Below are positions 1-42,837 of a stretch of 64,000 nt of DNA, one piece after another (position 1 is the first letter of the stretch; each line of letters opens with the position of its first letter). Below the pieces are notes generated by a model, which made no database searches, was not told the DNA's origin, and saw only the letters and a list, made by a program, of their open reading frames with translations. This stretch comes from Gordius sp. MW1 (Eukaryota > Nematomorpha > Gordioida > Gordea > Gordiidae). Location of the stretch: the NCBI GenBank assembly GCA_964036665.1, contig OZ038532.1, positions 9,806,037 through 9,870,036 of the forward strand. Direction: 5' to 3'. The position numbers were made by a program, and so were the translations under genes.

Positions 1-711
1 CTTTAAAATTTTACCCTCAACAGTGTTTATAACTTTTATTTCATTATTAAATTAATTTTAATTATCCCAATAACTTCGTGTTCATGCGAAAGATCGTTCT
101 CATTGCTAAACGGATATTAACTTATCTTCATTCCATAATTGGACAAAATAGCTTATCTTCCTTAACTTTATTGAGCTTAGAACATGACTTTACAGATGCT
201 ATTCATCCCGGATGATATTATAAATTCGTTTGCAACATCGAGTAATAGGCGTAATGAACTACAATTTTCTAAAGACTAATTTTAATATTTAATGTAGAAA
301 TATCTGGGCTTTTAAACTCGTTTTTAAACTTTTTAACACTTTCAAAATATAATAAAATATTATTAAATTTACGAAAATCTCATCCTGGATTTAATTTATT
401 TGTCAGCTTATTGTTTAACATAACTTGCATATTTTTATGTACCACATGCACATATAAAGTCAATGAATGGCTTGCACACAATTTCTTCCCCTTTATTAGT
501 GATACCCCACCATAAGTTTGAGCACCACATATTGCTTTTAAATTTATATTAATAAAAAATTCCTGAATTTTATTGAAAATTGTTAATGCATCAAAACTTT
601 TAAGGGATAAAAATGTTAAAAAATCTTTATTTGTGTCATTGGATTTTACAAAATGTACACAAACATCAAGTTGTTCTGTGCACCTCACATCTCTAATTTC
701 ATCTCAAATTA

Positions 712-1623
712 CACTGTTCTACAAATAAAGGTCTTGTGTAATCAACCTGGAAACGGTTAACATATTCTGATAAAGTTTTTTGTGGTGAACACAAATATGT
801 TTTTCGTTGTTTTCCTATACGTCAAGTTTTTTAGATATTTCGATTCAAAGTTGCGAAAATGACCGTTTTCGACGCTCAATAGAGCGATATTGAATAGCTA
901 AAAAAAAATTTACACCTCTAAGTGGTAGAACCAACTTAGGGTAACATTGAAAAATGATTTTTCCCCTATTGTTTTTACTTTTTCCAATATATCAAAAATG
1001 TAATTAGTCCCTATGCGAAATCGCGGCTTCCTTTGAGCCTCCCTCCCTCTCTATCTAATTGGCTTATATGCTTGCTTATATAACACTATACCCTTAGTGC
1101 ATGTAAGTGATTGATGAGTGTGGTGGGTGCAGTGTAAGAGTAGTGGGTTAATACGAACTATTCCTTCCTACTACTACGCCTGTTATCCTCCCTATCTACT
1201 AGAGGAATAGCTCGTATTACGCCACTACTTTTGCACACCCCCACATCATCCATCAATCACTCACATGCACCAAGAGTATAGTGTTATAAACCCAATTAGA
1301 TAGAGAGGGAGGGAGGGGGAGGCTCAAAGAATGCCGCTTCGCATAGGGACTAATTGAAATTCGATATATTGGAAAAAGTAAAAACAATAGGGGGAAAAAT
1401 TATTTTTCAATGTTTTACCCTAAATTAGTTCTAACACTAACCATTCAATATCGCTCTATTGAGCATCGAAAAGGGTCAAAAGCGGTTATTTTCGCAACTT
1501 TGAATCGAAATATCTAAAAAACTTGAAGTATAGGAAAAAAACGAAAACATATTTGTGTTCACCACAAAAAACTTTATCAGAATATGTTAACCGTTTCCCG
1601 GTTGATTATTTTGTAGACCAGTG
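712..1623. mobile_element. Foldback hairpin element with TTA target duplication, copy 1
   Basis: The two halves are near-perfect inverted repeats of over 400 bp: 'cgattcaaagttgcgaaaat' on the left returns as its complement on the right, around a short spacer near 1165-1197. Ends are CACTGTTCTACAAA and TTTGTAGACCAGTG, flanked on both sides by TTA (709-711, 1624-1626). A homologous host sequence at 15568-15570 has a single TTA at this point and no hairpin, which confirms boundaries and target duplication. It has no coding capacity. CAC ends plus a 3-bp TSD recall CACTA/EnSpm or Harbinger elements; the superfamily is not settled. Confidence 0.88.
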
Positions 1624-2283
1624 TTATTAAATAAAATTTTGATTCATATAATCTTGACAGAATTTTAAGGATCATTTTAGCCGTTAAATTTATTAGTTCA
1701 TTTTAAATTTTTGGTGGTGTGGGGTTTGTGCAAATAAATTTATAATATTATGAGGGACAATAACTTTTAAATACTCATTCTCGCATTTGCGGGTTCTGAT
1801 TTCACAATTAAGTTTTTTTTTATATTTTATGTTATAATTTCGCTTTTTGATGATATAACCTTAAAAAAGGCTTTTAAATGTTGTCATTGTTTTTCCGATA
1901 TAAATGCTGCTACCAATATCGCATATGTAAAATTAAGATTTGCTATATATATGGCCACTATATTTTTGGAGCTTTGTTGTATAGTTTTCAAACTATTTGT
2001 ATTATTTTTTGTAATATTAAAGCTTTCTTGTCAATATCCCCGTTCCACTTTCTGCTTTTACAATTCCTAAATCATTTATACACATGTGAATTTTTTTATA
2101 TTGTCTTGTTATAATCGTTTCAACTACATTACTTTGTTTTCTTTATGGATTTATTTTATTTATTTTATGCCCTATATAGATGAGAAATCTGAGACATACC
2201 AATGTCTTGTTATAAGAAAAAATACACGAAGTAGTAGCGGAATTTTAAGTTTGACTAACGTTTATGAGGGCAAAAATTTTCAA

Positions 2284-2520
2284 TTCCATTTGATGGGCTT
2301 AGGCAGGTTTTGCATCAGGTGGGGGGGGGCGAAAATGTTTTACATTCAATTGAGGGGGGGGGGGGGGACAAAACATATTTTATTAATTTTCAAAGGTTTT
2401 TGTATTGAAATTTTTTTATTTAAGGGGGGGGGGCGTCCCATCTGACCCCCGGCGTCCCATCTAACCCCCCCCCCCCCCCCCCCCCACCCCTAGCTACGCG
2501 CCCCCCACTCCTGGCTAAGC
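2284..2520 (-). mobile_element. G-run MITE (GGGCGTAGCC family), expanded copy
   Basis: Reverse-oriented copy with several runs of 9 or more G or C, the motifs 'aaaatgttttacattcaattga' and 'aaggtttttgtattgaaattttt', and a right end CTGGCTAAGCCCAT. Copies B and C of the surrounding hAT-like element carry a similar segment at the same place, so it was probably inside the ancestor. The C tract at 2466-2485 and repeated 'cgtcccatct' make the exact length uncertain. Confidence 0.65.
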
Positions 2521-2679
2521 CCATAGTTTAACCCTTTCCCGTTCGTGTGAAATCAAAGCTTCCCCCCCCCAAGGCAAAAGGGCTGGCTACACCACTCACT
2601 AGCACTAGGGAATAGCTGATTATCAGGATTGACAAAACGCTATAAAAATACTGTTTAAATCGTCATCGACCCTACTTAC

Positions 2680-2847
2680 CATGGGCGGCCAAGAGGAAGA
2701 TAGGGGGCAGCCGCCGCCCCCCTGATTCAAAAAAAAATTTAATGCACAAACCCTTAAAAATTAAAAAAATTTATGTTTTTCCCTCCCTAATTGAACTTTT
2801 AAACGTTTTGCCCCCCCCCCATAATCCAAAATCTGGCTACGCCCATG
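2680..2847 (+). mobile_element. G-run MITE, long-AT subfamily
   Basis: Starts CATGGGCGGCC and ends CTGGCTACGCCCATG. The interior has the family hallmarks 'gcacaaacccttaaaaatt', 'attgaacttttaaacgtttt' and two poly-C tracts. Confidence 0.75.
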
Positions 2848-2940
2848 ATACTTACTGTCTAAAATTTGAGTTCGCCTCCCCCCCCCCCCAAGAAAAAAAT
2901 GCTAGCTACACTTCGGCCGTCTATAGTATTATTAGTCTAT

Positions 2941-3662
2941 GCATAGGCGTAGCCAGGATTGTCTCATGGGGGGGGGGGGGTTTCCAAATTTTTTCCCTAA
3001 TGATACTATTAAACAAAATTTTATTAAGCTTTTATATAGTAGTGACGGAGGTAGGACGTAGGACTATCTAATTAATGGGGGGGGGGGGGGGGGGGTTAAT
3101 TTTGTTTAAAGAATTTCGATTAAACAAAAATTCATTAAAATTATATAGATTCAATATCTACGATGGGTGTTTGGTCAAAATGCATTAATAATATATTCAG
3201 AGACGCAAATTGCAAGTAGCTCTTACCAATTTTTCTGCTTGCGCTAATTAGGGCCATTTTTTTAACCAGACAATTGCATTGGCCTTTTAGGCTCAAATTT
3301 CCCATCGGAACCAATAATTTTCTCGCCCGGGACCGTTTAAATAAAATTATAAGCCCATTATTTGGCTTGTATCAGCATCTTCCTCGTTGAATTTAGAGGT
3401 ATAGATTTTTAGAGAAATTTTTAAGAATTAAATTTCTTTTTATTAGAAAACACGCACTCGGAACATAAATTTTTTGCATAAATAATGTTATAATTAGTAG
3501 ATTTTATCTAAAATTAAATATCAAATATATTAAGATAATATCTATATGCGCAACACACACAAGACTCTTATTAATATTTTTTCCGTATAATTAAAAAAAT
3601 ATATTATTTTTTCAATGGGGTGGGTCCTAACCCGAAAACCCACCCCCCTTGCCTACGCTACT
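2941..3662. repeat. Decayed G-run MITE fragments and AT-rich filler
   Basis: 2941-3100 starts GGCGTAGCCAGG and holds runs of 12 and 18 G, ending without a clear right terminus. A second stub at 3613-3662 ends GCCTACGCTAC. Between them I see only AT-rich sequence with no gene. Confidence 0.5.
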
Positions 3663-4475
3663 GTAGTCTATGTATAGAAATATTATGAGTTTGTTTTTTG
3701 AAACCAAGAAAATTCTTTTTATGTCAATAAAACTTATAAAATCTTTTGTTGCATAAATTTTGTGTTGATTGAAATATATACTCAGATATTAAACTCAGCG
3801 ATATAAGACTTTACCTTTGTTATCATTAGATTAGCAAATAAATACGTGGATAACGTGGCTGCAGTGTTTAGACATTGGCGACATTAAGTAGCCAATTGGA
3901 TAAAATCGAATTGTAGCGAATTGGATAAATCGGATGATTTTTTGTTGTAGTTTGTTCTACACCATTTCCAGAATATTCGAGGATCTAAATTAGGGACTAT
4001 ATGCCACTGCATTTGGAATTACCAGATCCGTAATTCTTCTGATCCTCACAGGATTACTTTACCCCATCCCATTTATTCTTGTTACATATCTATTCATATG
4101 TTTTATAACTACATCTTCGCTGCATTTGTTTAATCTCGCGTTTTGTCCTTTTATCTCAAAATTGTATTCGCATGATATGTCTCTTTAAAATAAAGATTAT
4201 CTCATCCTCACAGACTGACATGCTTTTCATCCAAACACCACTAAGTTGGTGATATAGCAAAATAAGTGATTAATATATCCTCCTAAATACAATCACTAAA
4301 TGGCCTCTGGTCTAATTAATTAATAAATGAGTTCTTCAAAATTTTAAAGCCAACTAAGACTTATTGATTTGGGAAGGGAGACAATTTCCTCAAATTGCTT
4401 ATGTAATTTTTGGTAATTTTTATATTTATGATGGAGCAATCACCTAGACGGCTGCCTTGCTATCCTAGCGTGAAC
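3663..4475. other. Intergenic, no feature recognised
   Basis: AT-rich sequence with no convincing exon, repeat family or RNA. A slightly more complex patch at 3960-4110 has no open frame of note. Confidence 0.4.
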
Positions 4476-4482
4476 TTTTAAA

Positions 4483-4725
4483 GGGGACCGTGTCCAAATA
4501 GCAAAAAAAAACAGCAGAATTGGTCAGAACTGGTCAGATCAAGATTGGTCAGGAGGGTTAAGGTTCGGGTTAGTGTTTTAGGTCAGCGTTTTAGGTTAGG
4601 TAGATGCACATCAAATTCCCTCCCCATTTGAGATTTAATTCTAATATATTGATTATCTAAAATCTTGTTCTGACCAGTTCTGACCAATTCTGCTCTTTTT
4701 TTTCTGCTATTTTGAACCCGATTCC
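4483..4725. mobile_element. MITE with long inverted repeats, upstream of the Tim8-like gene
   Basis: Terminal inverted repeats of about 58 bp with mismatches: the left arm contains CAAATAGCA, CAGCAGAATTGG and TCAGAACTGGTCAGA; the right arm is its complement (TCTGACCAGTTCTGACC at 4670-4686). Flanks TTTTAAA at 4476-4482 and 4726-4732 look like a 7-bp (or 8-bp) target duplication. No coding capacity. It ends about 60 bp before the ATG of the downstream gene and may overlap its promoter. Confidence 0.75.
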
Positions 4726-4785
4726 TTTTAAAGATGAATGTAACGATATGGCATCGATATTTAAAGTTTGTCTTTTTGTTTTATA

Positions 4786-5049
4786 ATGGGCGATCGGAAA
4801 AATGTGACTTTAAATAATGAAGAACAAAAGGATATATTATTAGAACAACAAAAGGCTCAGTATTCTTTAATGGTGCACCGACTTAATGATTTGTGCTGGG
4901 AAAAATGTTTATCAACTTCAAAATTATACGAAAAATTGGAATCCAAGCAAGAAATTTGTATTTCATATTGCATTGAGAGGTTTATAGACACATCGTTATT
5001 TGTTACAAATCGGTTTGCAAATTTATTGCAAAAAAATATTCAAAACTAG
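4786..5049 (+). CDS. Tim8-type small TIM chaperone, mitochondrial intermembrane space
   Basis: The predicted protein is 87 residues with the twin CX3C signature of small Tim proteins: C37-WEK-C41 and C58-ISY-C62, 16 residues apart, which would form two intramolecular disulfides in a helical hairpin. The second Cys pair is followed by ERFIDTS and a helical tail, typical of Tim8 rather than Tim9, Tim10 or Tim13. Family knowledge: Tim8 pairs with Tim13 in a hexamer that escorts hydrophobic precursors such as Tim23 across the intermembrane space. No signal peptide is expected, because import uses the Mia40 relay. The frame is open six codons further 5' but without an ATG there, so ATG 4786 is chosen. 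It is a single exon with a polyadenylation signal 45 bp after the stop. Which Tim8 paralogue it matches cannot be told. Confidence 0.9.
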   Translation: MGDRKNVTLNNEEQKDILLEQQKAQYSLMVHRLNDLCWEKCLSTSKLYEKLESKQEICISYCIERFIDTSLFVTNRFANLLQKNIQN

Positions 5050-5093
5050 TTTATAAAATGTCTTCAAATTCATAGTAATTTGATTTGTTATAT

Positions 5094-5099
5094 AATAAA
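5094..5099 (+). terminator. AATAAA polyadenylation signal of the Tim8-like gene
   Basis: The first canonical AATAAA after the stop codon, 45 bp downstream, a normal distance for a short 3' UTR. Confidence 0.6.
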
Positions 5100-6347
5100 T
5101 GGAAATTGGATGCACCCTACTTCCAAATTTTTGTCCCATAGTTTTAAATTGATTTCATAGTTTCCCTTGTAATATTAAAATGATATAAATTTTATCAATT
5201 GTTATAAAATTAAAATACCTTAAATGCAGATACATCAAAAGGAAGTGCCATTGTAAAATTGTCAATTGCATAGTTTCCATTTTGGATTGGGCATGTGCAT
5301 GGAAAATTTTTGAATCCCAAGTTTGATTGGCAGATGTTTTTAAAATATTTGTCCATTAAGGTGCATAGTTTAAATATGCTAGATATTATAATATAATTAA
5401 TAACTAAAAGCAATTGTAATAATATTTTAGATAATTTTTTAATTTAGTTTGTGATCAAATTCTATATGTTCCATAATAGTGTATTTTAGGATACTTTTAA
5501 TACATATTTCCTGTTTTAAATTAACCTGGCCTTATTTAAGAATTATTTTTTTAATTTTAAATGCTAATGCCTGTTTAACATGTGACTTATTCTTCACTAA
5601 AATGTTATTAGGTATTTACAATTAAGATACTTTTGTTAGCCAAAATTTTGCATCCAATAAAATGACTTTGCTGCCATATTATACCAGTAAAATAAAACTT
5701 TATTTGTTAAACCCACTCTGGCGCATTTTTTTATCTTAACTTTTGGCTTTTTACATTTGATGCAATCGATATTGTTAACTTATAACTATTAAGTTTTTAA
5801 ATTTTGATGAGTAAATTTGCTTTTAAATATCCTATTGTTTTTTTAACTTTCAATAGTTACTTATTACACATATAGCAGATTCCTGGATAGATTGCTCAAA
5901 ATCAGTTCAAAAACTTAAAATAATTTTGTGTTGGGGTTAAAAATAAAAAGAATTTGGTTTGGGTATGCTAGAAATAAAATGATCCCACAGAACTTTGCCT
6001 TGCATTTTTAGATCCTGTAAAGAAAGTTAAATTATTTTTTTGAATGCTATTGCGTTTGACTTATTTCTCAATCTAAAGCTAAATACTTTGTTATTTTAGG
6101 AAAGGGTAAATTCAGATTTGGGTAATGGGTTTCTTAAATTATTTTTGGAGTAATTAAGAATTAGTTTTGGGTTTAAATTAAAACTTAATAGCGTTTAGGT
6201 TTAGGTTGAAAAATAAAACAAAATTTAACGGTTTTGACTAAAAATATTATAGACAGGGATGAGGGACTGGAGTTTATGACCTATAAACTTTTCTAAAATT
6301 CTATTTTTTTTTAATTAAAGGGTTATATACATAATAATTCAAATGCT
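5100..6347. other. Intergenic, AT-rich, no feature recognised
   Basis: No exon, repeat or RNA recognised. The 67-codon frame on the minus strand at 5210-5413 has no protein-like features. Confidence 0.4.
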
Positions 6348-6356
6348 GTATTCTAG

Positions 6357-6670
6357 GGCCAATGTTACACGATCCAAATTCTTGGACTGTATAAGCGATC
6401 TGACATTCCATTTTCTTATTCGATCCAAAAAAAGTAATTATGTATCTTGAACCTAAAATGACTTAACCCTAACCCTACAAAACCTGCCCTTGCGAGTCCG
6501 AAATCACAATATGAAAACGTGAGTAAGAAATTTTGTTTATTTCTTACGATTTGTGTTTTTCCGAATGCGAAAAACACTAATCGGCGCTTCGTTATTTTTT
6601 GGATCGAATAAGAAAATGGAATGTCAGATCGCTTATACAGTACAAGAATTTGGATCGTGTAACATTGGTC
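6357..6670. mobile_element. Foldback MITE with 9-bp target duplication (Mutator-like)
   Basis: Arms of about 73 bp are almost perfectly inverted: 6359-6432 (from CCAATGTTACACGATCC) and 6595-6668 (to GGATCGTGTAACATTGG). The sequence GTATTCTAG occurs immediately outside both ends (6348-6356, 6671-6679). A 9-bp duplication and terminal G suggest a Mutator/MULE-type non-autonomous element. The spacer is non-coding and contains a short telomere-like CCCTAACCCTA at 6466-6476, probably coincidence. Confidence 0.85.
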
Positions 6671-6679
6671 GTATTCTAG

Positions 6680-7193
6680 GGCTTTCTTTAATTTGGGCGA
6701 GGCCAAATTTTTTTTTTGATTCTTGTATAAGCTTCCTAAAACTTATTGGTCCGAGTTAAGGCTGGGCCGCCTGTGCAGGGCTTTTATTGTCGGTTTTTTA
6801 TCAAGTAAAATATGCGTAAATTGGTTATTATTACAAGTTTTTGTATAGATTAATAAATATCTAGATTTATTAGTCAAATTTTTTTTAGATTCTTATTTAA
6901 AACTGACAATTGGCAATTATTAATTTCATTATTATGCTCTCCTTAACACTGCAAAATGTAGTTTCTCGTTTTTAAGTAGCCCTTACCTTTTCTAATCTTT
7001 ATCAGCTCAATTAAGTTAAAACCCATTGCAAAAATGAACTTTCCTTTAGTTGCAAAAAGAAATTGTTTTATTCTTTGGGTGGGTCATGTGTGTGGGGTAC
7101 AATTAAATTAAAAAAAGGGTTTGTAACTTACTTGAACTACTGCAATTTTAAATTTGCACCCTGTCTTGAAATATTACCAACACATAAACTATT
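6680..7193. other. Intergenic with a short shared motif
   Basis: No gene seen. The stretch GGGCGAGGCCAAATTTT at 6696-6712 recurs near 45522-45540 as CTCGCCCGAGGCCAAATTTT, so a small unclassified repeat may be present. Confidence 0.35.
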
Positions 7194-7306
7194 CATGGGC
7201 CCACCCCCACCCCCCTTAAACGACGAAAAAGAAAATTTTCGAAGCAAAAACCCTAAAAAAATTACGTTTTGCCCCTCCCCCACAATCCAAAACCTGGCTA
7301 CGCCCA
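7194..7306 (+). mobile_element. G-run MITE, 113 bp
   Basis: Starts CATGGGCCCACCC and ends CCTGGCTACGCCCAG. AAACTATT precedes it, and follows it after one base, consistent with an 8-bp hAT-type target duplication. Confidence 0.75.
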
Positions 7307-7478
7307 GTAAACTATTCATTCTAGCTTTTTTAAATTTATAATATAGTGATTAATGCAAAATCCAGTAGTGGTAAAATAGTCATGTTTTGATAAAATTTAA
7401 ATTAGAGCCTGTGTCATAGAGAAAAAAAATACAGGTAGACCAGTCTAAATGCCTATACTGTAATGGTAGATCAAAAGT

Positions 7479-7616
7479 CATGGGCGTAGAGGGAGGCAGA
7501 GAGGGGCGGGTGCCCCCAATAAATTTTTTAAAATGTCATATTATGTCTATTAAAAAATTGTCATTTTACTCCTCCCTAAATCATGCCCCCACTAGTTCCA
7601 ATCCTAGTGACGCCCG
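7479..7616 (+). mobile_element. G-run MITE, GGCAGGGAGGGGCGG subfamily
   Basis: Starts CATGGGCGTAG, then the subfamily hallmark 'gaggggcgggtgccccc', the AT core 'aattgtcattttactcctccctaaatcat' in part, and a mutated end AGTGACGCCCGT. Confidence 0.7.
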
Positions 7617-7654
7617 TTGTATATGTTACTCTCGTACTACTACATTTATCGTCC

Positions 7655-7730
7655 CCCCCAGGAGCAAAAACCGGGCCCCATGCCCCCCCCCCAAGGGAAA
7701 AATCTTGGGTTCCTTAAGCCATTTTTTTGA
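7655..7730 (+). repeat. Fragment of the left end of the long hAT-like element
   Basis: 'gagcaaaaaccgggccccat', 'cccccccaagggaaaaat' and 'aagccattttttt' match 14144-14215 at the left end of the complete copy. Confidence 0.65.
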
Positions 7731-7735
7731 TTTTA

Positions 7736-8475
7736 TTAATTGCTATGCAATTTATGGGCTCGTTTTTTGGTGTCCGTTGTCCACCAAGTTATTTGCCCCA
7801 TCTTTTTGACCTGGAGGTTCGAGTTCAAGCCCAGGAGAGGACAAATTTTTTTTTTAAATTAATTAATATATTGTTCTTGTTAATACCATTGATAATATGA
7901 CTTTTTGACCTTCCGCTGGCTACTGACCAAAGAAAAAAATGACCATGGGCCAAAGTATAATTCGAATTTTTTTTTTCGTTTTTGAATAGTTAACATTAAT
8001 AATTACCCTGTGCCCTCCCCTAGAAGGGCCTATGCCTCTATTGATATCGGTCCCTGTGCCCCTACAAAAGCCTTTGCCTCTACGATGTGGGTTCGAATCC
8101 CGGCGTGAGCAAATTTTTTTTTTTTTTAAATTAAATTAATTTATTGTTCTTGTTAATACCCTTGATAATATGACTTTTTAACCGTGTCCTGGCTACTGAC
8201 CAATTGAAAAAATCACCATTGGCCAAATTGTGAATCGAAATTTTTTTCGTCTTTTTTTCAAATTAATATATTGTTTTTGTTAATACCATTGATAATGTGA
8301 CTTTTTGGCCGTCCGCTGGCTACTGACCAATGGGTATAAATCGAAATTTTTTTTTCGTTTTTTTTGACTCGTATGTATTTATAGACCGTCTCTTGGTACT
8401 GATCAATGGAAAAAAATGACCATTGGCCAAATTGTGATTTGAAATTTTTCTCGTCTCTTTTTATTTTACATTTTA
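7736..8475 (+). mobile_element. tRNA-derived SINE-like repeats (two or more partial copies)
   Basis: The first copy starts with the family head TTGCTATGCAATTTATGGGC, has a tRNA-type B box (GGTTCGAGTTC near 7817), a poly-T-rich link, then the tail motifs 'gataatatgactttttgacc', GTCCGCTGGCTACTGACCAA and the palindrome TGACCAT..GGCCAAA, and ends 'ccctcccctagaagggcctatgcctcta' in part. A second copy follows from about 8043, with a better B box GGGTTCGAATCCCGG at 8084-8098 and an internally repeated tail. The A and B boxes imply RNA polymerase III transcription in the ancestor; no intact tRNA fold is present. Confidence 0.7.
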
Positions 8476-8868
8476 ACAATTTTCGCATTGATACCTATGC
8501 TTAAATGACTATTTTTAAGTAAAGGTACAATTTTCGCATTGATACCCATGCTTAAATGACTATTTTTAAGAAAAGGCTAAAATTTCAAAAATTATCATCT
8601 TGCCCCTCCCTAAATCATTAATGTGCCCCTCTAATGCCAATGCTGGCTACGCCCATGTTAACTATTTTATTATACATTTTAACAATTTTCGCATTGATAC
8701 CCATGCTTAAATGATTATTTTTAGGTAAAGGCACAATTTTTGCATTGACACCCATGTTTAAATCACTATTTTTAAGTAAAGGCTAAAATTTCAAAATTTA
8801 TCAGTTTGCCCCTCCCTAAATCATTATTGTGCCCCTATAATTCCAATGCTAGCTACGCCCATGTTAAC
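8465..8868 (+). repeat. Tandem duplication (~205 bp unit) ending in a MITE right half
   Basis: The segment running from 'acattttaacaattttcgca' to GCTGGCTACGCCCATG occurs at about 8466-8656 and again at about 8673-8863. Each half itself contains a doubled 'aattttcgcattgatacccatgcttaaatga' unit (in part), and ends with the 3' half of a G-run MITE whose 5' half is missing. Confidence 0.7.
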
Positions 8869-9544
8869 TGGAAATATTTCCTGACTTTGAATATAATCAA
8901 GTAATTTGTTGTATTTTTCTATTTCAATCATTTTTAAAAATGGTAGATTTTGTCCCTTCACCTATTTATTTTAAAATTTATTTTTAAATATCTTTTTGGT
9001 TTTAGCTAGCCTTTACAAAGCTTTACTATATCAGTCCTCTTTATTAATACAACTTTTTTTATTCATTCTAAAGCTTAAAATTATTTATATTGCCGATATG
9101 ACATTATTAGTTTACTTAGGAACTCTTTTTAATTGCTGCCAAAATTTGTGTCATCGCAGGCACAGTATTTATTGGTTTTTTCCTCCTCACTTTCTAATAT
9201 AATAATTCTAGCAGAGAGGGAAATCAATGGGAAAAGTCAATTCTTAAAATCGATAATTCTAATCAATTAATTGCTATGCGATTTATGGGCTGAATCTTTT
9301 TTAAAATAAAAGATTAAAGATTATTACCTAGCCCTAAATATAGCATTAAGATGGCAACCTAAATGAAATTGGCTATTTTATATTAAAAACATGAGAATTC
9401 TTATATTTATTTAAAAATACGTATTTCTACATTTTAGACGGATTAACTATTTGCGTTCCTTTCGTAATTTTGATTAATTTAGAAGTTGATAAATAAGAAT
9501 GAATGAAAAAAAATATTTCCTCAATAAATAATAAAGTATTATTA
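8869..9544. other. Intergenic, no gene recognised
   Basis: AT-rich. A SINE head-like stub TTGCTATGCGATTTATGGGC lies at 9271-9290; nothing else supported. Confidence 0.4.
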
Positions 9545-9619
9545 AGTGTTTTGAAAAAAATAACCATTGGCCAAAGTATAAATCGAAATTTTTTTTCGTT
9601 TTTAAATTGGTATATTAGG

Positions 9620-10808
9620 TAGAGGCCTGCAAATTCACTTTTTTTCAACCCGAACCCGACTCGACCCGAAAGCGTTTTTAAATTTTCAACCCGAACCCGA
9701 CCCGACCCGAAGCGTTTTTAAAATTTCAACCCGAACCCGACCCGACCCGAAAGCGTTTTTAAATTTTCAACCCGAACCCGACCCGACCCGAAAGCGTTTT
9801 TAAATTTTCAACGACTCGAACCAGTAGAAAAATTTGAGGATGAAAAATGTATTCGACAGAAATGATCATACAAAATTTGATTAATAAATTTATTAAATTG
9901 ATTTACTATAATTATGTATAAATATTATGGCGTCTACAATTTCGGGGCGTAAATTAGACCTTCTCTCTTCTATAATTCTTCCAGCAGTGGAAAAGGACCT
10001 CTCACTACTGGTAGAAGAAGCTGGTATGGCCAAAAATTTACGAGCCAATAGGGACAATGTCGGATATTTACATGAATTAATCTTCCACCATTCCAAAAGC
10101 TTTTTGAAGCTGTATACACATTTTTTTTAAGCATATTCTTTATCTTATGTTGCATATTTTCATTTTGGTCATTCTTATTCACTTAAATAAAATTAGTGTC
10201 ATTATATATATTGGTAGGGCAGGATGTAGGAATAATAGATTTACTTTTTTGTTGATTTATAAGTATGTAGTTATATCTTTTTTTAGTTAAATTTCTAATT
10301 TACTCTAAAGACTATAAACAATAATAAATAATCATTTGTTAATATTTTACCTTTCGTTATTCGACTTTAAATTGAATAATGTAGTTAAATTTATAATCTT
10401 CTCTATAGAGTATAGAATAGACTATAAACAATTAAAAAATACTCATTTGTTAATATTTTACCTTTCGTGATTCAGCTTTAAATTTAAATTTGCCTCCAAA
10501 TTAAACGAATTAAAAAATCGAAAAGGAAATTGATTCTATGAATGAATGAATATAATTAGTTTAGTCATACAATTCGATATTGTATAACTAAAATTATAGA
10601 AAATAGCATTAATTTAACAAATACGTTTCGTTCATTTTGTAATGTAAGATTCATATCCTTTGATCCGACTCTATAAATCCAACCCGACCCGACATGAATG
10701 CATTCTAAAATTTTCAACCCGAACCCGACCCGACCCGAAAATTTTTAACTCTAACCCGACCCGACCTCGGGTCGGGTTCGGGTTTCGGGTGACCCGTGCA
10801 GGCCTCTA
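9620..10808 (-). mobile_element. hAT DNA transposon, 1189 bp, internally decayed
   Basis: Perfect 8-bp duplication ATATATTAGG-type core ATATTAGG at 9612-9619 and 10809-10816. Terminal repeats TAGAGGCCTGCA / TGCAGGCCTCTA, followed on both sides by arrays of 'cccgaacccgacccgacccga'-like units (about four on the left) that are typical subterminal transposase-binding repeats. It contains the C-terminal end of a hAT transposase on the minus strand, so the element's own orientation is minus. Confidence 0.92.
9893..10096 (-). pseudogene. hAT transposase C-terminal dimerisation domain, remnant
   Basis: The 67-codon minus frame carries the hallmark of the hAT C-terminal domain: a WW..N...YP.LSLLARKFLAIP stretch followed by ASSTSSERSFSTAG and R.NLRPE...AIIFIHN. 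In active hAT transposases this segment mediates dimerisation and completes the RNase H-like fold. The upstream part, including BED finger and catalytic residues, is not recognisable between here and 10700, and the frame is broken just upstream (overlapping frame to 10182), so this is a dead remnant inside the hAT element. Confidence 0.88.
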
Positions 10809-11071
10809 ATATTAGGTTGCCATTGATAATGACCTTATGCCCTCCCCTACAGGGGCCTATGCCTCTACTTTATGATAGTATATTATATAATTGCAATAAA
10901 ATAAATAAATAATTTGTATATTTACTTGTTTTTTGTAACAACGGTTGCATTCTTTTTTTTAATATTTAATAAATACTTATTTCTAAGTTTTAGGCGGTTT
11001 GACATTAATTAATAATATTTAAAACTTGAAGATTCTTTTTTTTTATTTAATAAATATGTATTCTGATTGAC

Positions 11072-11165
11072 GATTGCCCCCCCCCTAGGCATTCTCGCCC
11101 CTTCCCAAATTGCATAGCAAATATGCTACTTTTATACGGAGTATAAAAGAGTTCCCCCTTCCCCC
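11072..11165 (-). repeat. Short dispersed repeat, also at 23468-23565
   Basis: 'aggcattctcgccccttcc', 'attgcatagcaaatatgct' and 'atacggagtata' occur here and, inverted, at 23480-23560. Part (TTGCTATGCAATTTATGGGC) is the SINE head motif. Confidence 0.6.
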
Positions 11166-13404
11166 CTTCATTGTTTTTTATCTTAATTAAAAATCGATTA
11201 AAATGCGTAATGAACTATTTTTAAAAGACTAATTTTAATATTTAATGAAAAATTATCTGGACTTTTAAACTTGTTTTAAACTCTTTTTTCAAATTGTATT
11301 CAAATATTATTAAATTTACGAAAATTCCATTCCTAGATTCAATTTTATTGTCCATACACCATCTCACATCACATGCTTATTGTTTAACATATCCTGCATG
11401 TTTTTACTGCACATATGAAGTCAATGATTTTCCAAAACATAGTGTGTACACCATTTTTATCATAAGTTTATAAAAAAATTCCTGAATAATATAGACAATT
11501 GTTAATGCATCAAAACTCAAGGGATAAAAATCCCAAAAAATTCTTTTGGTGTGTCATTGGATTCAACAAAATGTACAAAACGCTAAGTTGTTCTTTGCAT
11601 CTCACATCTCTAATTTCTGAAATTAAACTAGTCAACAAATAATGGTCTTGTGTAAATAACCGGGAAACGGTCAACATATTCCGATAGAGTTTTTTGTGGT
11701 GAACACAAATATGTTTTTCGTTGTTTTCCTATACGTCAAGTTTTTTAGATATTTTGATTCAAAGTTGCGAAAATGACCGTTTTTGACCCTTTTCGATGCT
11801 CAATAGAGCGATATTGAATGGCTAAAAAAAATTTTAACCGTGGTAGAATTAACTTAGGGTAAAACATTGAAAAATGATTTTTTCCCCTATTGTTTTTACT
11901 TTTTAATATATATCAAAAATGCAATTAGTCCCTATGCAAAATCGCGGCTTCCTTTGAGCCTCCCTCTTTATCTAATTATCTTATATGCTTATGATGCTTA
12001 TATAACACTAAACCCTTGGTGCATGTAAGTGATTGATGAGTGTGGTGGGTGCAAGAGTAGTGGGTTAATACGAACTATTCCTACTACTACGCCTTTCATC
12101 CTCCCTCTCTACTAGAGGAATAGCTCGTATTACGCCACTACTCTTACACACCCACACCCCCACATCATCCATCAATCACTCACATGCACCAAGAGTATAG
12201 TGTTATAAACCCAATTAGATAGAGAGAGAGGGAGGCTCAAAGGATGCCGCTCGCATAGGGACTAATTGAAATTCGATATATTGGAAAAAGTAAAAACAAT
12301 AGGGAAAAAAATCCTTTTTCAATGTTTTACCTTAAGTTGGTTCTACCACTTAGAGGTTTAAAAAAAATTTAGCCATTCAATATCGCTCTATTGAGCATCG
12401 AAAAGGGTCAAAAACGGTCATTTTTGCAACTTTGAATCGAAATATCTAAAAAACCTGACGTATAGGGAAAAAACGAAAACATATTTGTGTTCACCACAAA
12501 AAACTCTATCGGAATATGTTGACCGTTTCCCGGTTTTTTTGTTGGCCAGTGTTATTAAATAAAATTTTGATTCTTTTAATTTTGACAGAATATTTTTAAG
12601 GTTCATTTAGCAGTTAAATTTATAATTTTATTTTTAAGTGGTGTAAGGGGGGGGGGGGGGTGGTTGTCCAAATATAATCTATAATATCATCAGGGGCAAT
12701 AACTTCTAAATACTCACTCTCGAACAAATTTTAATTTCCTAATTAGTTTTTTTTCATTATATGTTATAATTAGGATCTAATCATTATGTTCCTGAAGCAG
12801 CCTGAAAATGCCGCCAGTTTTGTATATGTAAAATTAAAATTTGTTATATATATGGCCAAGATTTTTTGGGGTTGTGGCAATAAAATATTTTTATAAAATT
12901 TTGTTGTATAGTTTTTATACTATTTGTATTATTTTTTAAAATGTCAAAGATTTCTTGTCAATATCCCCGTTTCACTTTGTGCTCTTACAATTCATATATA
13001 CAAAATGTTAAAATACCATTTGAATTTTTTACATTATTTCAACTACATTACTTTGTTTTATTTTTGAAAATTTTCATTTATTTTATGCCCTATAAACATG
13101 AGGGTCTAAGACATATGAGCGGGATGTTATTAGAAAATATACACAAAGTAGTAGCGGAATTTTAAGTTTTTCCAACGTTCATGAGGGAAAAAAATTGCGT
13201 TTGACCCATGTGTATATCCAGGTTTTGGATTGGGGAGTGTCGAAAATGTTTTACGCTCAATTATGGGGGGGGGGGGACATAATTTTTTAAGTTTTAAGGG
13301 TTTTGTACTGAAAATTTTTTTTGCCCCCCCCCCTACATACGCCTAAGGTTTGACCCCTTATCAAAACTCGGCCCCTCAGGGCAAGAAGGCTAGCTACGCC
13401 ACTC
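11166..13404 (+). mobile_element. Long hAT-like non-autonomous element, copy B
   Basis: From about 11205 ('gcgtaatgaac') to the end CTAGCTACGCCACTC it follows copies A and C. The left part is shortened relative to copy C and its precise left end is unclear; a stretch 'ttttttatcttaattaaaaa' at 11175 resembles 14215-14235. It contains the second foldback hairpin at exactly the site used in copy A, and a G-run MITE-like segment near the right end. Weak ORFs inside are not shared between copies. Confidence 0.7.
11626..12551. mobile_element. Foldback hairpin element with TTA target duplication, copy 2
   Basis: Same sequence and architecture as 712-1623: over 400-bp inverted arms, centre near 12080-12110, ends AACTAGTCAACAAA and TTTGTTGGCCAGTG, TTA on both sides (11623-11625, 12552-12554). 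It occupies the identical position in its host repeat, so copies 1 and 2 descend from one insertion event followed by amplification of the host element. Confidence 0.87.
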
Positions 13405-14097: not shown

Positions 14098-16384
14098 CAG
14101 TGGCGTAGCTAGGGGGGGGCCCAGGGGGCCCGGGCCCACCCAAGAGCAAAAACCGGGCCCCATGAGCCCCCCCAAGGGAAAAATTTTGGGCCCCTGGGCC
14201 CCGTAAGCCATTTTTTTTTATTTTATCTCAATTAAGAAAAAATATGAAGATTATAATTATCTTTGAATATAGCTTTTAATTATAAAATAAAGCCTAAATA
14301 TTTGTTTAATAAATGCAATTTCAACGGTTAATAGCCTTATATTAACTTTAAATGATATTAGAAATGAGGATCACTATCAAATTCTTTATAAAGGCGAAAG
14401 ATTTCGCTTCAATTTTTGATTTAGTACCTTATAAACGTTTTAAAAAATCAAAAAATTATGACACTTTTTACTTTTTTTAATCTACCAATTCATTAATGGA
14501 TTTCGAAATTGATATATATTATCCTATCATCTAGAATAATAGCAGAATTAAACCTAAGATTTTCGAAAATAATTTGTAATCTATATAGGTCCTTAGAAGG
14601 TTTCATGGGCATAGCCAGAATTTGAATTAGAGGGGGGCAATAATGATTTAGGAGGGGGCAAAATGATTATTTTTTCAAATTTCAGCCTTCAACAAAATTT
14701 TAAATTTAGAGGGGGGCGGCCGCCCCTCTGCCCTCCCCCTCCTTGGCTAAGCCCATGGAAGGTTTAAAGAAACCCTTCATCCCCTTTTTTGAGATAAGTC
14801 TTTTTATCAGAGTAATTAACCATTATGAATTAAAACTGCAAGATGCCGAAATAATAATGACAAAAAATATGTAAATTAAATGCAATGATTTTTTTTCACT
14901 TATTAAAATTTTGCCCTCAATAGAATATTTTTAACTATCCCAATAACTTCATGCTCATGCGAAGGATCGTCTCATTGTTAAAATGGATTAAAAATATCTT
15001 CATCACATTTGGACAATATAGGTTATTTTCCTTAGCTCTATTGAGCTTAGAACATGACTTTAAAAATGTTATTCCCCGGATGATATTATAAATTCGTTTG
15101 CAACATCGAGTAAAAGGCGTAATGAACTACTATTAAAAGTCTAATTTTAATATTTAATGAAAAATTATCTGGGCTTTTAAACTTGCTTTAAACTTTTTAA
15201 CAATTTCAAAATATATTAAAAAGTATTAAATTTACGAAAATTCCATCCTGGTTTCAATTTAATTGTCCATCTCACATGCTATTTGTTTAACTTGCGTATT
15301 TTTATGTACCACATGCACATAATAAAGCCAGTGATTTTCCAAAAAATAGTTTGGACACCATTTTTCCCCCTTTATTAGTGATATCCCATCAAAAGTTTGA
15401 TAAATTAATATTAATAACAAATTCCTGAATTTTGTAGACAATAACGCATCAAAACTTTCAAAGGATAAAATCCCAAAAAAATCCTTTTGGTGTGCCATTG
15501 GATTCAACAAAATGCACACAAACGCTAAGTTGTTCTGTGCATCTCCCATCTCTAATTTCATCTAAAATTATTAAGTAAACTTTTGATTCATTTAATTTTG
15601 ACAGAAGGTTCATTTAGCCGTTAAATTTATTAGTTCATTTTAATTTTTATACGGTGTAAAGGGGGGGGGGGTGCAAATATATCTATAATATCATCATTCA
15701 CAAACGAATTTTATTTCATAATTAATTTTTTTTATATTTTATGTTATAATTACGCTTTTTGAGGATCTAGCCTTAAAAAAGGCTTTTAATGTTCTCATTG
15801 TTTTCCTGATATAAATGCTGCTTGAAAATGCTGCCAATATTGCATATGTAAAATTAAATTTGTTATAATATGGCCAAGTCTTTTTGGGGTTGTGGCAATA
15901 AAATGTTTTTATAAAAACTTTGTTGTATATTTTTTTCACTATTTGTATTATTTTTTAAAATGTCAAAGATTTCTTGTCAATATCCCAGTTCCACTTTGTG
16001 CCCTTACAATTCATTTATACAAAACTTATAATACCAAGTGAAATTTTCTATATTGTTTCAACTACATTACTTTGCTTTATTAATGAATAAATTTTATTTA
16101 TTTTATGCCTATAAACATGAGGTCTAAGACATACCAGTGTGATGTTATTAGAAAAAATACACAAAGTAGTAGCGGAATTTTAAGTTTGTCCAACGTTTAT
16201 GAGGGAAAAATTTTTCATTTGCGTTTGACCCATGGTTGTATCCAGGTTTTGGATTAGGGGGGGGGGGGGGGCAAAACATAATTTTGTTAATTTTTAAAGG
16301 TTTTAGTAGTTAAAATTTTTTTGTCTCCCTCCATGGCTTGACTAGCTCAGCCCCCCCAAGGCAAAAAGGCTAGCTACGCCACTG
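14098..16384 (+). mobile_element. Long hAT-like non-autonomous element, complete copy C (2287 bp)
   Basis: Perfect 15-bp terminal repeats CAGTGGCGTAGCTAG / CTAGCTACGCCACTG and a perfect 8-bp target duplication CCCCTGCC (14090-14097, 16385-16392) define it. The CAGTGGCGTAGC terminus with 8-bp TSD is characteristic of hAT elements in many animals. No transposase remnant is recognisable; frames at 15259-15561 and 15739-15939 are short and not conserved. It carries a MITE at 14604-14757 and lacks the hairpin present in copies A and B; the unfilled site is at 15568-15570. Confidence 0.92.
14604..14757 (-). mobile_element. G-run MITE, 154 bp, perfect TSD
   Basis: CATGGGCATAGCC ... GGCTAAGCCCATG flanked by GAAGGTTT at 14596-14603 and 14758-14765. 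Interior has the reverse form of the subfamily core including 'gaggggggcggccgcccctct'. Youngest layer of a three-deep nest. Confidence 0.93.
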
Positions 16385-27546: not shown

Positions 27547-29933
27547 TAGTGTTGTAAAAAACCAAGGCTTTAGATTGGTCGCCTGCAAGGGTTACCGTTT
27601 TTCCACACCAAACCCTTTCAGTGTTAGGTGAATTTTTTTGGTTCACCCTTGGTATTTGGCGCTTTTTACACCCATACACCAAGAGTGTTTGGGTGAATTT
27701 TTTTGGTTCACCCTTGTGTATTGGCGCTTTTCACACCCATACACCAAGGGTGTTTGGGTGAAATTTTTTGGTTCACCCTTGGTGTATTGGCTCTTTTCAC
27801 ACCCATACACCTATGGTAACCTTTGGGTTTGGTTTTGGCCGTTTTGGTTTCTGTATGGAAATATGTGAAGTTTTTAATTTTTGTATTTATACTTATTTAT
27901 TTTTGTAATGAACTTTTATTAATGGGTAATATGAAATGACGTCACTAAGTGGAAAGTATCATACTTGCTAGTTATAATCAACTTATAATTTGTTCCAATT
28001 GGTATGCGATGCATCATTCATGCAGATCATTAAAGGTGTATTATGAAAATATTTTTTTACCTGTTAAATGTGAAACAGGTGGCAAATTCCAAAATCTTTA
28101 ATATCTATTGAAACGATGGAAATTGGTTCATTATATGACTAAAACAACTTTTAAACTCGAAAATAATATTTTTTCACCTGTTAAATGTGAAACAGGTGGC
28201 AAATTCCAAAATCTTTAATATCTATTGAAACGAATATTTTTTTTTGGAAATTTGTTTATTATATGACTAAAACAAGTTTTAAACTAGAAAATAATATTTT
28301 TTCACCTGTTAAATGTGAAACAGGTGGCAAATTCCAAAATCTTTAACATCTATTGAAACGAATATTTTTTTTTGGAAATTGGTTCATTGAAACAAGTTTT
28401 AAACTCGAAAATAATATTTTTCACCTGTTAAATGTGAAACAGGTGACAAATTTCAAAATCTTCAATATCTATTGAAATGAATATTATTTTTTGGAAATTG
28501 GTTCATTATATGACTAAAACAAGTTTTAAACTCGAAAATAATATTTTTTCACCTGTTAAAAGTGAAACAGGTGGCAAATTCCAAAATCTTTAATATCTAT
28601 TGAAACGAATATTTTTTTTTGGAAATTGGTTCATTATATGACTAAAACAAGTTTTAAACTCGAAAATAATATTTTTTCACCTGTTAAATGTGAAACAGGT
28701 GGCAAATTCCAAAATCTTTAATATCTATTGAAACGAATATTTATTTTGGAATTTGGTTCATTAAAACAAGTTTTAAACTCGAAAATAATATTTTTCACCT
28801 GTTAAATGTGAAACAGGTGACAAATTTTAAAATCTTCATTATCTATTGAAATGAATATTATTTTTTGAAAATTGGTTCATTATATGACTAAAACAAGTTT
28901 TAAACCTGAAAATAATATTTTTTCACCTGTTCAATGTGAAACAGGTGACAAATTCCAAAATCTTTAATATCTATTGAAATGAATATTATTTTTTGAAAAT
29001 TGGTTCATTATATGACTAAAACAAGTTTTAAACTCGAAAATAATATTTTTTCACCTGTTCAATGTGAAACAGGTGATAAATTCCAAAATCTTTAATATCT
29101 ATTGAAACGAATATTTTTTTTTATAAATTGGTTCATTATATGACTAAAACAAGTTTTAAACTCCAATATAATATTTTTTCACCTGTTAAATGTGAAACAG
29201 GTTATAAATGTCAAAATCTTTAATATCTATTGAAAATTTTATTTTTTTTTGAAAATTGGTTCATTTTCTGACTAACGAACCAATTTCCAAAAAAAATATT
29301 CATTTCAATAGATATTGAAGATTTTGGAATTTATCACCTGTTTCACATTTAACAGGTGAAAAAATATTATTTTCGAGTTTAAAACTTGTTTTAGTCATAT
29401 AATGAACCAATTTCCAAAAAAAAATATTCATTTCAATAGATTTGGAATTTGTCACCTGTTTCACATTTAACAGGTAAAAAAATATTTTCATAATACACCT
29501 TTAATGATCTGCATGAATGAGGCATCGCATACCAATTGGAACAAATTATAAGTTGATTATAACTAGCAAGTATGATACTTTCCACTTAGTGACGTCATTT
29601 CATATTACCCATCAATAAAAGTTCATTACAAAAATAAATAAGTATAAATACAAAAATTAAAAACTTCACATATTTCCATACAGAAACCAAAACGGCCAAA
29701 ACCAAACCAAAAGGTTACCATAGGTGTATGGGTGTGAAAAGAGCCAATACACCAAGGGTGAACCAAAAAATTTTACCCAAACACCCTTGGTGTATGGGTG
29801 TAAAAAGCGCCAAACACCAAGGGTGAACCAAAAAAATTCACCTAACACTGAAAGGGTTAGGCGTAATTTATACACCAATTACCAAGCTTGGCAACATGCT
29901 GGGAAAAACCAGCCAGCCGTTTTTACAACACTA
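27547..29933. mobile_element. Palindromic hAT-like element, 2387 bp, with central tandem array
   Basis: Terminal repeats TAGTGTTGTAAAAA / TTTTTACAACACTA and a perfect 8-bp duplication GTTGATAC (27539-27546, 29934-29941). The outer ~470-530 bp on each side are inverted copies of one another, including 'accctttcagtgttaggtg', the repeated 'ttggttcacccttggtgtat' units (three on the left, two on the right), 'gttttggccgttttggtttc', GACGTCACTAAGTGG and 'ttggtatgcgatgc'. The middle is a tandem array (28050-29475). No protein coding is apparent; frames at 27638-27868 and 29666-29878 are translations of the inverted arms. The same terminus occurs on a small MITE in the RFC4 intron. Confidence 0.93.
28050..29475 (+). 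repeat. Central 125-bp tandem array, ten direct units then two inverted
   Basis: Unit: 'tttttcacctgttaaatgtg', 'aaacaggtggcaaattccaa', 'aatctttaatatctattgaa', 'ggaaattggttcattatatg', 'actaaaacaagttttaaact'. Ten direct units start near 28050, 28170, 28300, 28422, 28548, 28677, 28795, 28922, 29049 and 29176; after 29275 the strand flips and two inverted units follow. Every unit holds the hairpin CACCTGTT-AAATGTGA-AACAGGTG, whose arms are E-box sequences. Units are very similar, indicating recent expansion or homogenisation. Confidence 0.92.
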
Positions 29934-31380: not shown

Positions 31381-31552
31381 TTTTTTAAAAAATGTTATAC
31401 TAAATAGAAATTTCTCTTGATGTTATAAAATTATAAAATAAGTGAAAAATCAAAAATGACAAACTATATTATTTTTCAAAAATTTTCATACACAAACTTG
31501 GTAACGATTTAGTGCGACATGTCATTGTCAATATAAAGATATGAAACAATTA

Positions 31553-32450
31553 CACAGCTCTACAAATATTGACTTTGTGACTTTATCCCGCTATCTAACC
31601 TATAATTCTGATAGAGAATTTTGCGCTGATTAATAATTTTTTTTTAGTTTTTTCCCAAAACCTTCCTTTTTTTAGATAAACGAGGTTGAAGGTGCAAAAA
31701 ATGCCCATTTTACCCCTTTTCGAGGCTCAATAGTCACGAAATTTTTCATTTATATCAAAAAATATTAATTTATTCCTGTAGATTAAAGTTTCATCTATAC
31801 GTCCATTATTTTATTTTTTTTTATATTACCCTTATATTTAAATTTATTTGCGTTTATGTAAACCCCTTCCCCTTATCAAAATTCGTCCCGCTATGTCTAG
31901 AAAAAGGAGTACATTAGAGTTCATTCTACACACGCGCTGTTTACTAACACATCTCTCTCTCCCTTTCACCATCTCTTCCACTCCCGCCCCCATATCTATC
32001 CAAGCACACATGAAGGGGGCGGGAATGGAGGAGAATGAGAGGAGAGTATGTGAAGGGAGAGAGATATGTGTTGGAAAACATCGCGTACGTAGTATGAACT
32101 CTAATGTACTCCGTTTACCAGACATCGTGGGACGAATTCTGATAAGGAGAGGGGGTTTACGCAAACGCCTAAAAATTTTAATATAAGGGTGATATAAAAA
32201 AATAAAATAATGGACCTATAGATAAAACCTTAATCTACATGAATATATTACTATTTTTCACTAAATATTAAAAATGCCGTGGCAATATAGCCCAAAAAGA
32301 CTTAAAAAAAGCATTTTTGGCACTTTCAACCTCGTATACCTAAAAAACTGGTAATTGTAGAAAAAAACTAAAAACATTTTATTTTTCAGCGCAAAATTCT
32401 CTATCAAAATTATTGGTCGGATTGCGTGATGTTTTTTCTGTAGACCTGCA
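31553..32450. mobile_element. Foldback hairpin element with TTA target duplication, divergent copy 3
   Basis: 898 bp, arms of about 430 bp inverted around a centre near 32000 (CCCGCCCCCAT..AAGGGGGCGGG). Ends CACAGCTCTACAAA and TCTGTAGACCTGCA, with TTA at 31550-31552 and 32451-32453. It shares short blocks with copies 1 and 2 at equivalent places ('cgaggctcaatag' compare 'cgatgctcaatagagcg'; 'gcaaaattctctatcaaaat'), so it belongs to the same family but a different subfamily. The two opposed ORFs at 31844-32186 are mirror translations of the arms. Confidence 0.85.
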
Positions 32451-32453
32451 TTA

Positions 32454-40473: not shown

Positions 40474-40953
40474 TAATTATTAATTAAAACAAAATAAGGT
40501 GTATCAAAATGTATAATACTATTTTATAAATAAATACATATTATCAAATAAATCACTAAATCAATTTTATTATAGATTCTAAATAAATCATGTATACAAT
40601 ATTTATTAAAATTCAGTGTACAATATGTATTATATATAATTAGAGAGTAATATGTAAATGAACATTTTGTTCTTCGTATTTCATGTAAGAACTCATGTGT
40701 TTCAAATATGTTGTAATTATTAATTAAAACAAAATAAGGTATATCAAAATGTATAATACTATTTTATAAATAAATACATATTATCAAATAAATCACTAAA
40801 TCAATTTTATTATAGATTCTAAATAAATCATGTATACAATATTTATTAAAATTCAGTGTACAATATGTATTATATATAATTAGAGAGTAATATGTAAATG
40901 AACATTTTGTTCTCCGTATTTGATGTAAGAACTCATGTGTTTCAAATATGTTG
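40474..40953. repeat. 240-bp tandem duplication inside the MULE
   Basis: 40474-40713 and 40714-40953 are almost identical (differences such as ggtgtatc/ggtatatc and ttcgtatttcatg/tccgtatttgatg). The second copy includes the last codons of the transposase frame. Confidence 0.93.
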
Positions 40954-41709
40954 ATGCATCTATTTCATGATTTCTGTAATGATCTTGCAAATTTTTGATG
41001 CAAGTTTCCTTTTGTATTTCTATCTTCGATTTAAGATTGATCATTTTCCCTTGATTTATCTTTTTGATGTTTGAGTCACTTTCTCGTTGTATTGCTTTAA
41101 TGTGATCTATGAACTCGTAGATGTTAGGGTGGGATTGTTTTATCATGTGTTTTAATTTGTTGTGGAATCCTTCTATATGATTATTGGTTCTTGGCAGACA
41201 ATTCTCTTCATATCTTCTTCACATTTTGTATTTAAATTGGGCATCTTCTCCTACCCATGATTAAATTATAACATTTAGTAAAAATAAATACTCTGCTGCT
41301 CGTTGGGGTTTGCTTGATCTATAGATGTAATATCACTACAATCATTTTTTGAGCTGGAACCTGGATGATTAATAAGATCTTTTGATTTACAAAGGTTACT
41401 TGAGGAAGGCAATGCTGAAGATACATCACAAGTATGCTCTTTAGTTATATCAAAATTCTCTTGTTGAAGAATCCCTTTCCCATTACATTTAGTTTTTCGA
41501 CACCTATAATATATTTGTTGGTTTTTTCCTATCTTTGCTTTGGTATAGGAGTATCGGCCATAAGTCAACGCCTGACCATTTCTTGCTGACTTCGTAAATT
41601 CTAAAAAATATGTACAGCTTATATAATTACATTTACTTGATTTATCTTTCGCTAGAAAATTTCTAAATTCTTGCACAAATGCCATGTAACAATATGCAAA
41701 CGATAACAT
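40880..41709 (-). pseudogene. MULE transposase remnant: FLYWCH zinc finger plus C-terminal part
   Basis: The upstream part (41709-41275) has a FLYWCH-type finger: FTKSARNGQALTYGRYSY, then YYRCRKTKCNGKG and ...TKEHTCD, giving the C-x4-C...H-x-C spacing of the family. After a stop and a change of frame comes GEDAQFKYKM, an in-frame TGA where family members have Trp, RRYEENCLPRTNNHIEGFHN and then the frame 41146-40880 (MIKQSHPNIYEFIDHIKAIQ). That second block matches the segment just after the catalytic core in FLYWCH-MULE transposases. The DDE core itself is missing. It is bounded by MULE termini, so it is transposon-derived rather than a host FLYWCH gene. Confidence 0.85.
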
Positions 41710-42837
41710 AGACTAAGTCTATGAACGATAAGCTAGGTAATCGATAAAATACGAACCTAATTTTATGCTGCTTTTTTGTGACGATTGTGCTGCCTCAACC
41801 ATGATCCGCAAGAATGTATTTAACACCAAAATAGGGTGTTTATTGATATATACGAATTGTACTTATTCTAAAAACTAGTAATCCACAATGAAAAAGAACA
41901 TTGCTTTTCGGGATTATACAAATTTCCCTTAATTGGATGGTGGAAATTAGTAAGTTTAGACGAACTTACTGGAAAAACAGGAGATCAATTTAACATTAAT
42001 TTCAAACCAACGCTATATTTTTAATTTTTAGCAAAACAAAAATTCCCAGATATCTAATCATTTTAAATTTATCACTAAGGTATTTAAAAAGGATGTTATT
42101 TAAATGCTCAGTAAAAAAATCAAAAATGCTCAGTAAAATATGCTCAGTAATTTATTAATGTGCTCAGTAAAAAATTCAAAAATGTTCAGTAAATAATCTT
42201 AATATCTCAGTTATAAATCCAAAATGCTCAGTAAATAATCTTAATATTGCTCAGTTATAAATCCAAAATGCTCAGTAAATAATCTTAATATTGCTCAATT
42301 ATAAATCCAAAATGCTCAGTATTTTTAAAAAAATGCTCAGTAATTTTAATAAATAACACTCAATCTTAATCTGTTTAGCACTAATATTTTGTAAATATAA
42401 AGTTAAATTGAGTGTGTGGAAATTGAAATAGTTTATTTTGATTGTTAAATTTTTAAAGGTTATAAGGTATCTTAGTGTCTTGAATTTTTTCCCTTTAAGT
42501 CCTCCCTTCTCTCAATTCAAACAAATAAATAAATGGCAAGTTAAAAAAGCTATAAAAAGTAATGACCTATAATTCCAATTCTAAATGCTCTGCCTTCCCC
42601 TTCTTAAATTTTACATGTTTATAATGAATTTTTTTGCAAATTTTGTTGAGATTTATCAATCAAAGGGAAAATATAAATTTTTTATTTAAATATAATCACA
42701 AATATTTACAAATACAGATTAATAATAATAATTAACAATTTAAATGAAAAATAGACAAATTTTGCTGGAGGCAACTTTCATTTGAAAAACCTAAAATTTG
42801 TTATATAATCAATGTTAAATAATCTAAACTTACCATT

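Follow-up and report, generated by a model that had tools for sequence, protein, structure and literature searches.

When two copies of one transposable element hold the same long hairpin at the same base, did the element carry the hairpin along as it multiplied, or did hairpins arrive there separately? This question is raised by a 64,000-nucleotide stretch of the Gordius sp. MW1 genome (hereafter the window; C6:9806037-9870036, in an assembly of 211.8 Mb and 12 contigs), in which two palindromic elements of ~0.9 kb, A and B, each sit between TTA duplications at the same position of a hAT-like element, while a third copy of that host, C, is empty, with a single TTA and uninterrupted flanks (Table 1). 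The initial annotation had this arrangement right, coordinates included, and had concluded that the hairpin was carried along as its host multiplied. Here we favour, with a probability of about 0.82, a different reading, in which A and B belong to a palindromic, non-coding and non-autonomous family with the ends and target signature of Chapaev3 (CMC), and were inserted separately.

A dispersed family of palindromic elements

Arm-to-arm identity over the length is 78.3% in A and 81.0% in B, and the predicted folds contain 375 and 383 base pairs (bp), respectively, which falls short of the near-perfect hairpins and the stem of over 400 bp described in the initial annotation. Fold energies were -532.5 kcal/mol for A (shuffle mean -193) and -568.2 kcal/mol for B (shuffle mean -197), and none of the 20 shuffles matched either element, so that folding is far beyond chance in both. 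Aligned with each other, the two show 86.7% identity if gaps are counted, or 93.2% if only aligned bases are compared. Neither contains an open reading frame of at least 110 amino acids, Tandem Repeats Finder gave no tandem repeats inside them, and Rfam at gathering scores found nothing in the window, which likewise has no tRNA. At paired positions of the arms there were 54 two-sided complementary cells versus 7 two-sided non-complementary cells, with 32.5 two-sided changes expected under independence. Since four pairs give 36 of the 54 complementary cells, this co-variation says little on selection for an RNA, and the pattern looks like subfamily inheritance.

Searching the genome with A returned 1481 first-look candidates, 40 of which were scored, and a 34-base piece of the hairpin centre occurred at no fewer than 209 places at up to three mismatches (control, 0). 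Ends and duplications were scored in 33 copies (A, B, a further copy termed D, L064 and L002-L030), not all of them independent, as L015, L017 and L020 derive from a single insertion that was copied together with its flanks. CACTG..CAGTG-like ends (CACTGGTCWACAA) were located in these copies with 0-5 mismatches per 13-base end, in agreement with the ends first proposed, although the left end of B has 3 mismatches in 13 and that of A has one. Exact 3-bp duplications flank 29 of the 33 (18 TTA, 8 TAA, and one each of ATA, GAA and TAT), and length is 910-944 bp in all but L064, which measures 1391 bp and has a further insert. Having no coding capacity and many near-uniform copies, the family shows the features of non-autonomous miniature inverted-repeat transposable elements (MITEs).

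Among 30 excised loci, A alone has host sequence to its left and right at that position; L024 lies outside a host copy, ~150 bp from its right end, and fragments of other repeats are shared between the flanks of some loci. An arrangement in which every copy lies inside the host and TTA is never duplicated, raised initially as what would make the hairpin an internal part of that element, is thus not what the genome contains. Mobility had been asserted from the window, and the scored candidates, their 3-bp duplications and the empty sites described below bear it out; A and B are supported as insertions of a dispersed mobile family. In L064 the hairpin copy is broken at 873-1328 (within C2:17510400-17512100) by a smaller palindrome with CATAGACTAC at its start, the inverse at its end and, by eye, an 8-bp flanking repeat.

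Terminal and target signature

The published Chapaev3 signature consists of CAC..GTG ends, TWA duplications (W being A or T) and insertion between A and T (PMC4079192). All three features were found here, with CAC..GTG termini, TWA in 26 of the 29 exact duplications, and an A preceding and a T following the duplication in 31 of the 33 copies. Judged from ends and target alone, the hairpin family likely belongs to the Chapaev3 group. Since no frame of at least 110 amino acids exists within the hairpins, they must be moved in trans, and a Chapaev3-like transposase supplied in this way would cut and paste them.

PIF/Harbinger elements, which have a terminal motif and transposase of their own, also duplicate TWA, the only feature shared with the hairpins, and CACTA (En/Spm) elements also have CACTR ends and 3-bp duplications, so the hairpins could be placed in one of these groups rather than in Chapaev3. 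However, the 3-bp duplication of CACTA is without fixed sequence, whereas the hairpin family has a strong TWA and A..T preference. The combination of CAC..GTG ends, TWA and fixed A..T neighbours is that of Chapaev3 (PMC4079192), and we regard either of the other placements as unlikely.

A full-length partner with CACTG ends and a transposase, for which a search had been proposed, did not emerge. A pattern for the hairpin ends, filtered against hairpin inner sequence, matched 43 places, and by eye ~17 of these were still hairpin ends with small indels while 26 were not; no transposase was seen in the 10 of these 26 loci that were read over 4 kb. Eight frames from L066 and L068 were examined with Pfam, which detected an RVT_1 reverse transcriptase in L066 (E 5.8e-8) with nothing else above cut-off. 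In the remaining loci frames were judged by length and eye; a 442-amino-acid frame in L070 is reverse transcriptase-like by eye. The Transposase_21 profile (PF02992) had no match in the genome, but control genomes were silent as well, so this negative carries no weight. Six of the loci (L066, L067, L069, L070, L073 and L074) share ~175-230 bp of arm mutually, their similarity to A or B being over shorter stretches, and the end is therefore used by several families. L065 was the only end-sharing locus with a possible second end and matching TAA, 302 bp away. Another palindrome of ~0.9 kb occupies L074 (about 48-970) and a short one lies in L073; both resemble the hairpins in their CACTGGTCAACAA end and in part of the arm, and their centres differ.

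Foldback elements have long inverted arms and little unique centre, and their arms often hold tandem repeats; A and B have the long inverted arms in common with them, without the tandem repeats. Chapaev3 transposons and their MITEs (Merrow, Garfield, Conan) are alike in their CAC..GTG ends and A-TWA-T target, and also in having non-autonomous derivatives and paralogous empty sites (PMC4079192). Two MITE families are described there as direct internal-deletion derivatives, and MITEs as generally <600 bp (PMC4079192), whereas the hairpins here are ~0.9-kb palindromes for which no transposase was found in the loci read. Made1 palindromic MITEs, which gave rise to hsa-mir-548, are 80 bp long with two 37-bp arms and a 6-bp middle, and are similar in that nearly the whole element is a palindrome folding as an RNA hairpin; the hairpins here, in contrast, have 375-387 pairs, are over ten times longer and carry another superfamily signature (PMC1784062). 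Unknown 6 of Calliphora vicina, unclassified and palindromic at positions 1-465 of its 488 bp (92%), is likewise a palindromic repeated element in an animal genome, although half the size, and it is likened here by description and not by sequence (PMC3630058). Titles and abstract openings, mainly of the open literature, contained no full-length palindromic Chapaev3 element, which does not thereby show its absence from print.

Insertion at a shared base of the hAT host

The host termini in copy C are recorded as CAGTGGCGTAGCTA, with CAGTGGCGTAGCTAG at the start and its inverse at the end, and the 8-bp repeat CCCCTGCC flanks the copy. Among 29 other host loci, both ends lay within the stretch in 23, and an exact 8-bp duplication was present in 18 of these 23, with end pairs picked for the best match between their duplications. 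We assign the host to the hAT type from its ends (CAGTG-type) and 8-bp duplication alone, both of which were found in copy C and these 18 loci.

Using a query spanning the site in copy C, all 40 scored places were uninterrupted, a selection that favours empty sites. The host right-flank pattern occurred at 365 places at up to two mismatches (control, 0), and among the 100 listed matches 98 were empty, with host-like sequence before the pattern, and two were filled (A and B, with CCAGTG before it). When the pattern was required to follow CCAGTG, at up to three mismatches, eight places were obtained, five of them host-like and three filled: A, B and D (L061, on contig C4), in which the hairpin lies at the same TTA and in the same orientation as A and B, with host on both sides. 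Two near relatives of host A are empty, L063 having exactly one TTA at the site and L062 having its flanks 13 bases apart. Nine right-flank matches on one strand of C2 (G000:C2:6646174-6696193), spaced ~4-9 kb apart, are perhaps a tandem array containing the hAT element.

In a tree of 32 hairpins, all turned to one strand, a branch supported at 100/99 has A with 18 others on one side and B and D with 11 others on the other, and the approximately unbiased (AU) test gave p values of 0.005 for A+B, 0.00035 for A+B+D and 0.043 for B+D. Likewise, in a host tree of 35 rows, a 100/100 branch sets A and D, together with the empty L062 and L063, apart from B, C and the 29 other empty copies, with AU p values of 5e-7 for A+B and 1.2e-4 for A+B+D. 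Since both trees reject A+B, and empty host relatives stand beside A and B alike, the two hairpins most likely landed separately and were not copied together; the trees fit best with at least two separate arrivals, or three if the weaker result for B versus D is accepted. Terminal branches for A, B and D were 0.027, 0.029 and 0.038 in the hairpin tree and 0.096, 0.097 and 0.093 in the host tree, and A and B are 93.2% identical as hairpins but 80.3% as hosts over aligned bases. By these measures hairpins A and B are estimated to be much younger than the split of their hosts.

The base and orientation shared by A, B and D, together with their TTA duplications, would also arise had a hAT host gained one hairpin and carried it in multiplying, as first proposed, with copy C an empty branch or a copy that lost its hairpin. 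Co-copying does occur in this genome: a unit of at least 9.66 kb, present on C1 and C8 and 98.99% identical, holds two hairpins. In this internal control the difference is 0.85% for each hairpin and 0.64% for the remainder, so that carried hairpins and their surroundings diverge about equally. The A and B hairpins do not diverge like their surroundings, and carriage by the host is therefore unsupported; with A+B rejected by both trees and empty copies adjoining both A and B in the host tree, we consider it very improbable. The two copies of the control unit are L075 (C8:33681000-33690900) and L076 (C1:26249300-26259200), with the hairpins 5.85 kb apart; one of these hairpins recurs in a third copy, L015 on C3, and the only frame of at least 110 amino acids in L076 has 126.

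A single ancestral insertion, with the A or B hairpin later exchanged for another family member through ectopic gene conversion and with many precise losses, is made conceivable by the two-sided complementary changes, which could reflect homogenisation between arms. It requires, however, that the empty copies (98 among the 100 listed), even L063 with its exactly one TTA, lost the hairpin precisely and kept no footprint, and it has similarly little to recommend it. Separate insertion thus remains our preferred reading: A, B and D would each have inserted at the same hAT TTA as a top target match.

Window features, putative small RNAs and target choice

Coordinates of the features discussed are collected in Table 1. 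They include an older related palindrome, E, absent from the initial annotation, which is 71-72% identical to A and B across 130 columns and has 349 pairs in its fold; because E is a palindrome, look-alike frames occur on both of its strands.

Table 1. Palindromic elements, their target duplications and hAT host copies in the window (positions from the first base of the window).
Feature	Position	Strand	Remarks
Host copy A, left of insertion	1-711	+	extends beyond window start
Left TTA duplication of A	709-711	.	
Palindromic element A	712-1623	+	912 bp; subfamily with left end AATAAAGGTCTTGTGTAATCAACC
Right TTA duplication of A	1624-1626	.	
Host copy A, right of insertion	1624-2596	+	
Host copy B, left of insertion	11190-11625	+	similarity to other copies begins at 11190
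Left TTA duplication of B	11623-11625	.	
Palindromic element B	11626-12551	+	926 bp; other subfamily; left terminus mutated to AACTA
Right TTA duplication of B	12552-12554	.	
Host copy B, right of insertion	12552-13403	+	
Host copy C	14098-16384	+	complete, empty; ends CAGTGGCGTAGCTAG; 8-bp duplication CCCCTGCC
Empty target TTA in copy C	15568-15570	.	within AATTATT
Palindromic element E	31553-32450	+	898 bp; older, related; TTA at 31550-31552 and 32451-32453

Elsewhere in the window, 27684-29849 is a large inverted repeat whose arms (~617 bp, 91%) enclose tandem arrays with a 128-bp unit. Among eight window frames, FLYWCH was the only Pfam domain above cut-off; at 40880-41712 the FLYWCH frame is followed by a same-strand frame that resembles a transposase end by eye, and the region is possibly a MULE-type element. 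FLYWCH is an animal domain, and CCCTAA repeats stand at the starts of contigs C1 and C6, the end of C8 being without them. Both point to an animal rather than a plant genome, so that the 24-nucleotide plant class is not the one expected should the hairpins yield small RNAs, as was initially suggested; the long-stem fold of A and B is shown by computation only, and a small-RNA role remains putative.

Why the same base was used was approached with a target weight matrix built from 28 other insertions, leaving out A, B and D. The matrix shows AA-TWA-TT, and under it the shared site ranks first in host A and second in hosts B, C and D. Because this TTA scores at or near the top within the hAT sequence, target preference, as modelled by the matrix, explains the use of this base.

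Several observations weigh against our reading. Target preference predicts only 0.1-0.35 hits at the site genome-wide, assuming 209-400 hairpins and 365-700 host copies, where three were seen, and the probability of at least three is 0.0001-0.0055; on this calculation target preference does not fully account for the three hits, although the excess is to be taken lightly because the site was chosen after the fact and many other repeats were possible. Three of the 29 exact duplications are not TWA, and duplications were unequal in 4 of the 33 copies. No autonomous partner or transposase was found for the family in the ten end-sharing loci read. Furthermore, host terminal branches vary with which relatives were sampled, the ends of A and B had already hinted at a subfamily difference when the trees were built, and the independence of B from D is weak (p 0.043).

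A further reading, though an unlikely one, is that the transposase reads ~7 bp (AA-TWA-TT) plus more at the hAT site, which would lead to repeated insertion at the same base in one orientation (3/3), and that the hairpins feed small-RNA pathways directed against both transposons.

Taken as a family, the hairpins are well documented and, for non-autonomous elements, fairly ordinary; their recurrent insertion is instructive. They also carry a caution, since nested transposons that share a base resemble one copied event, yet here the hairpin and host histories disagree. With many known paralogous empty sites to set against three hits, and an internal control in the same genome, the locus may serve as a natural replicate for target choice by a Chapaev3-like element.

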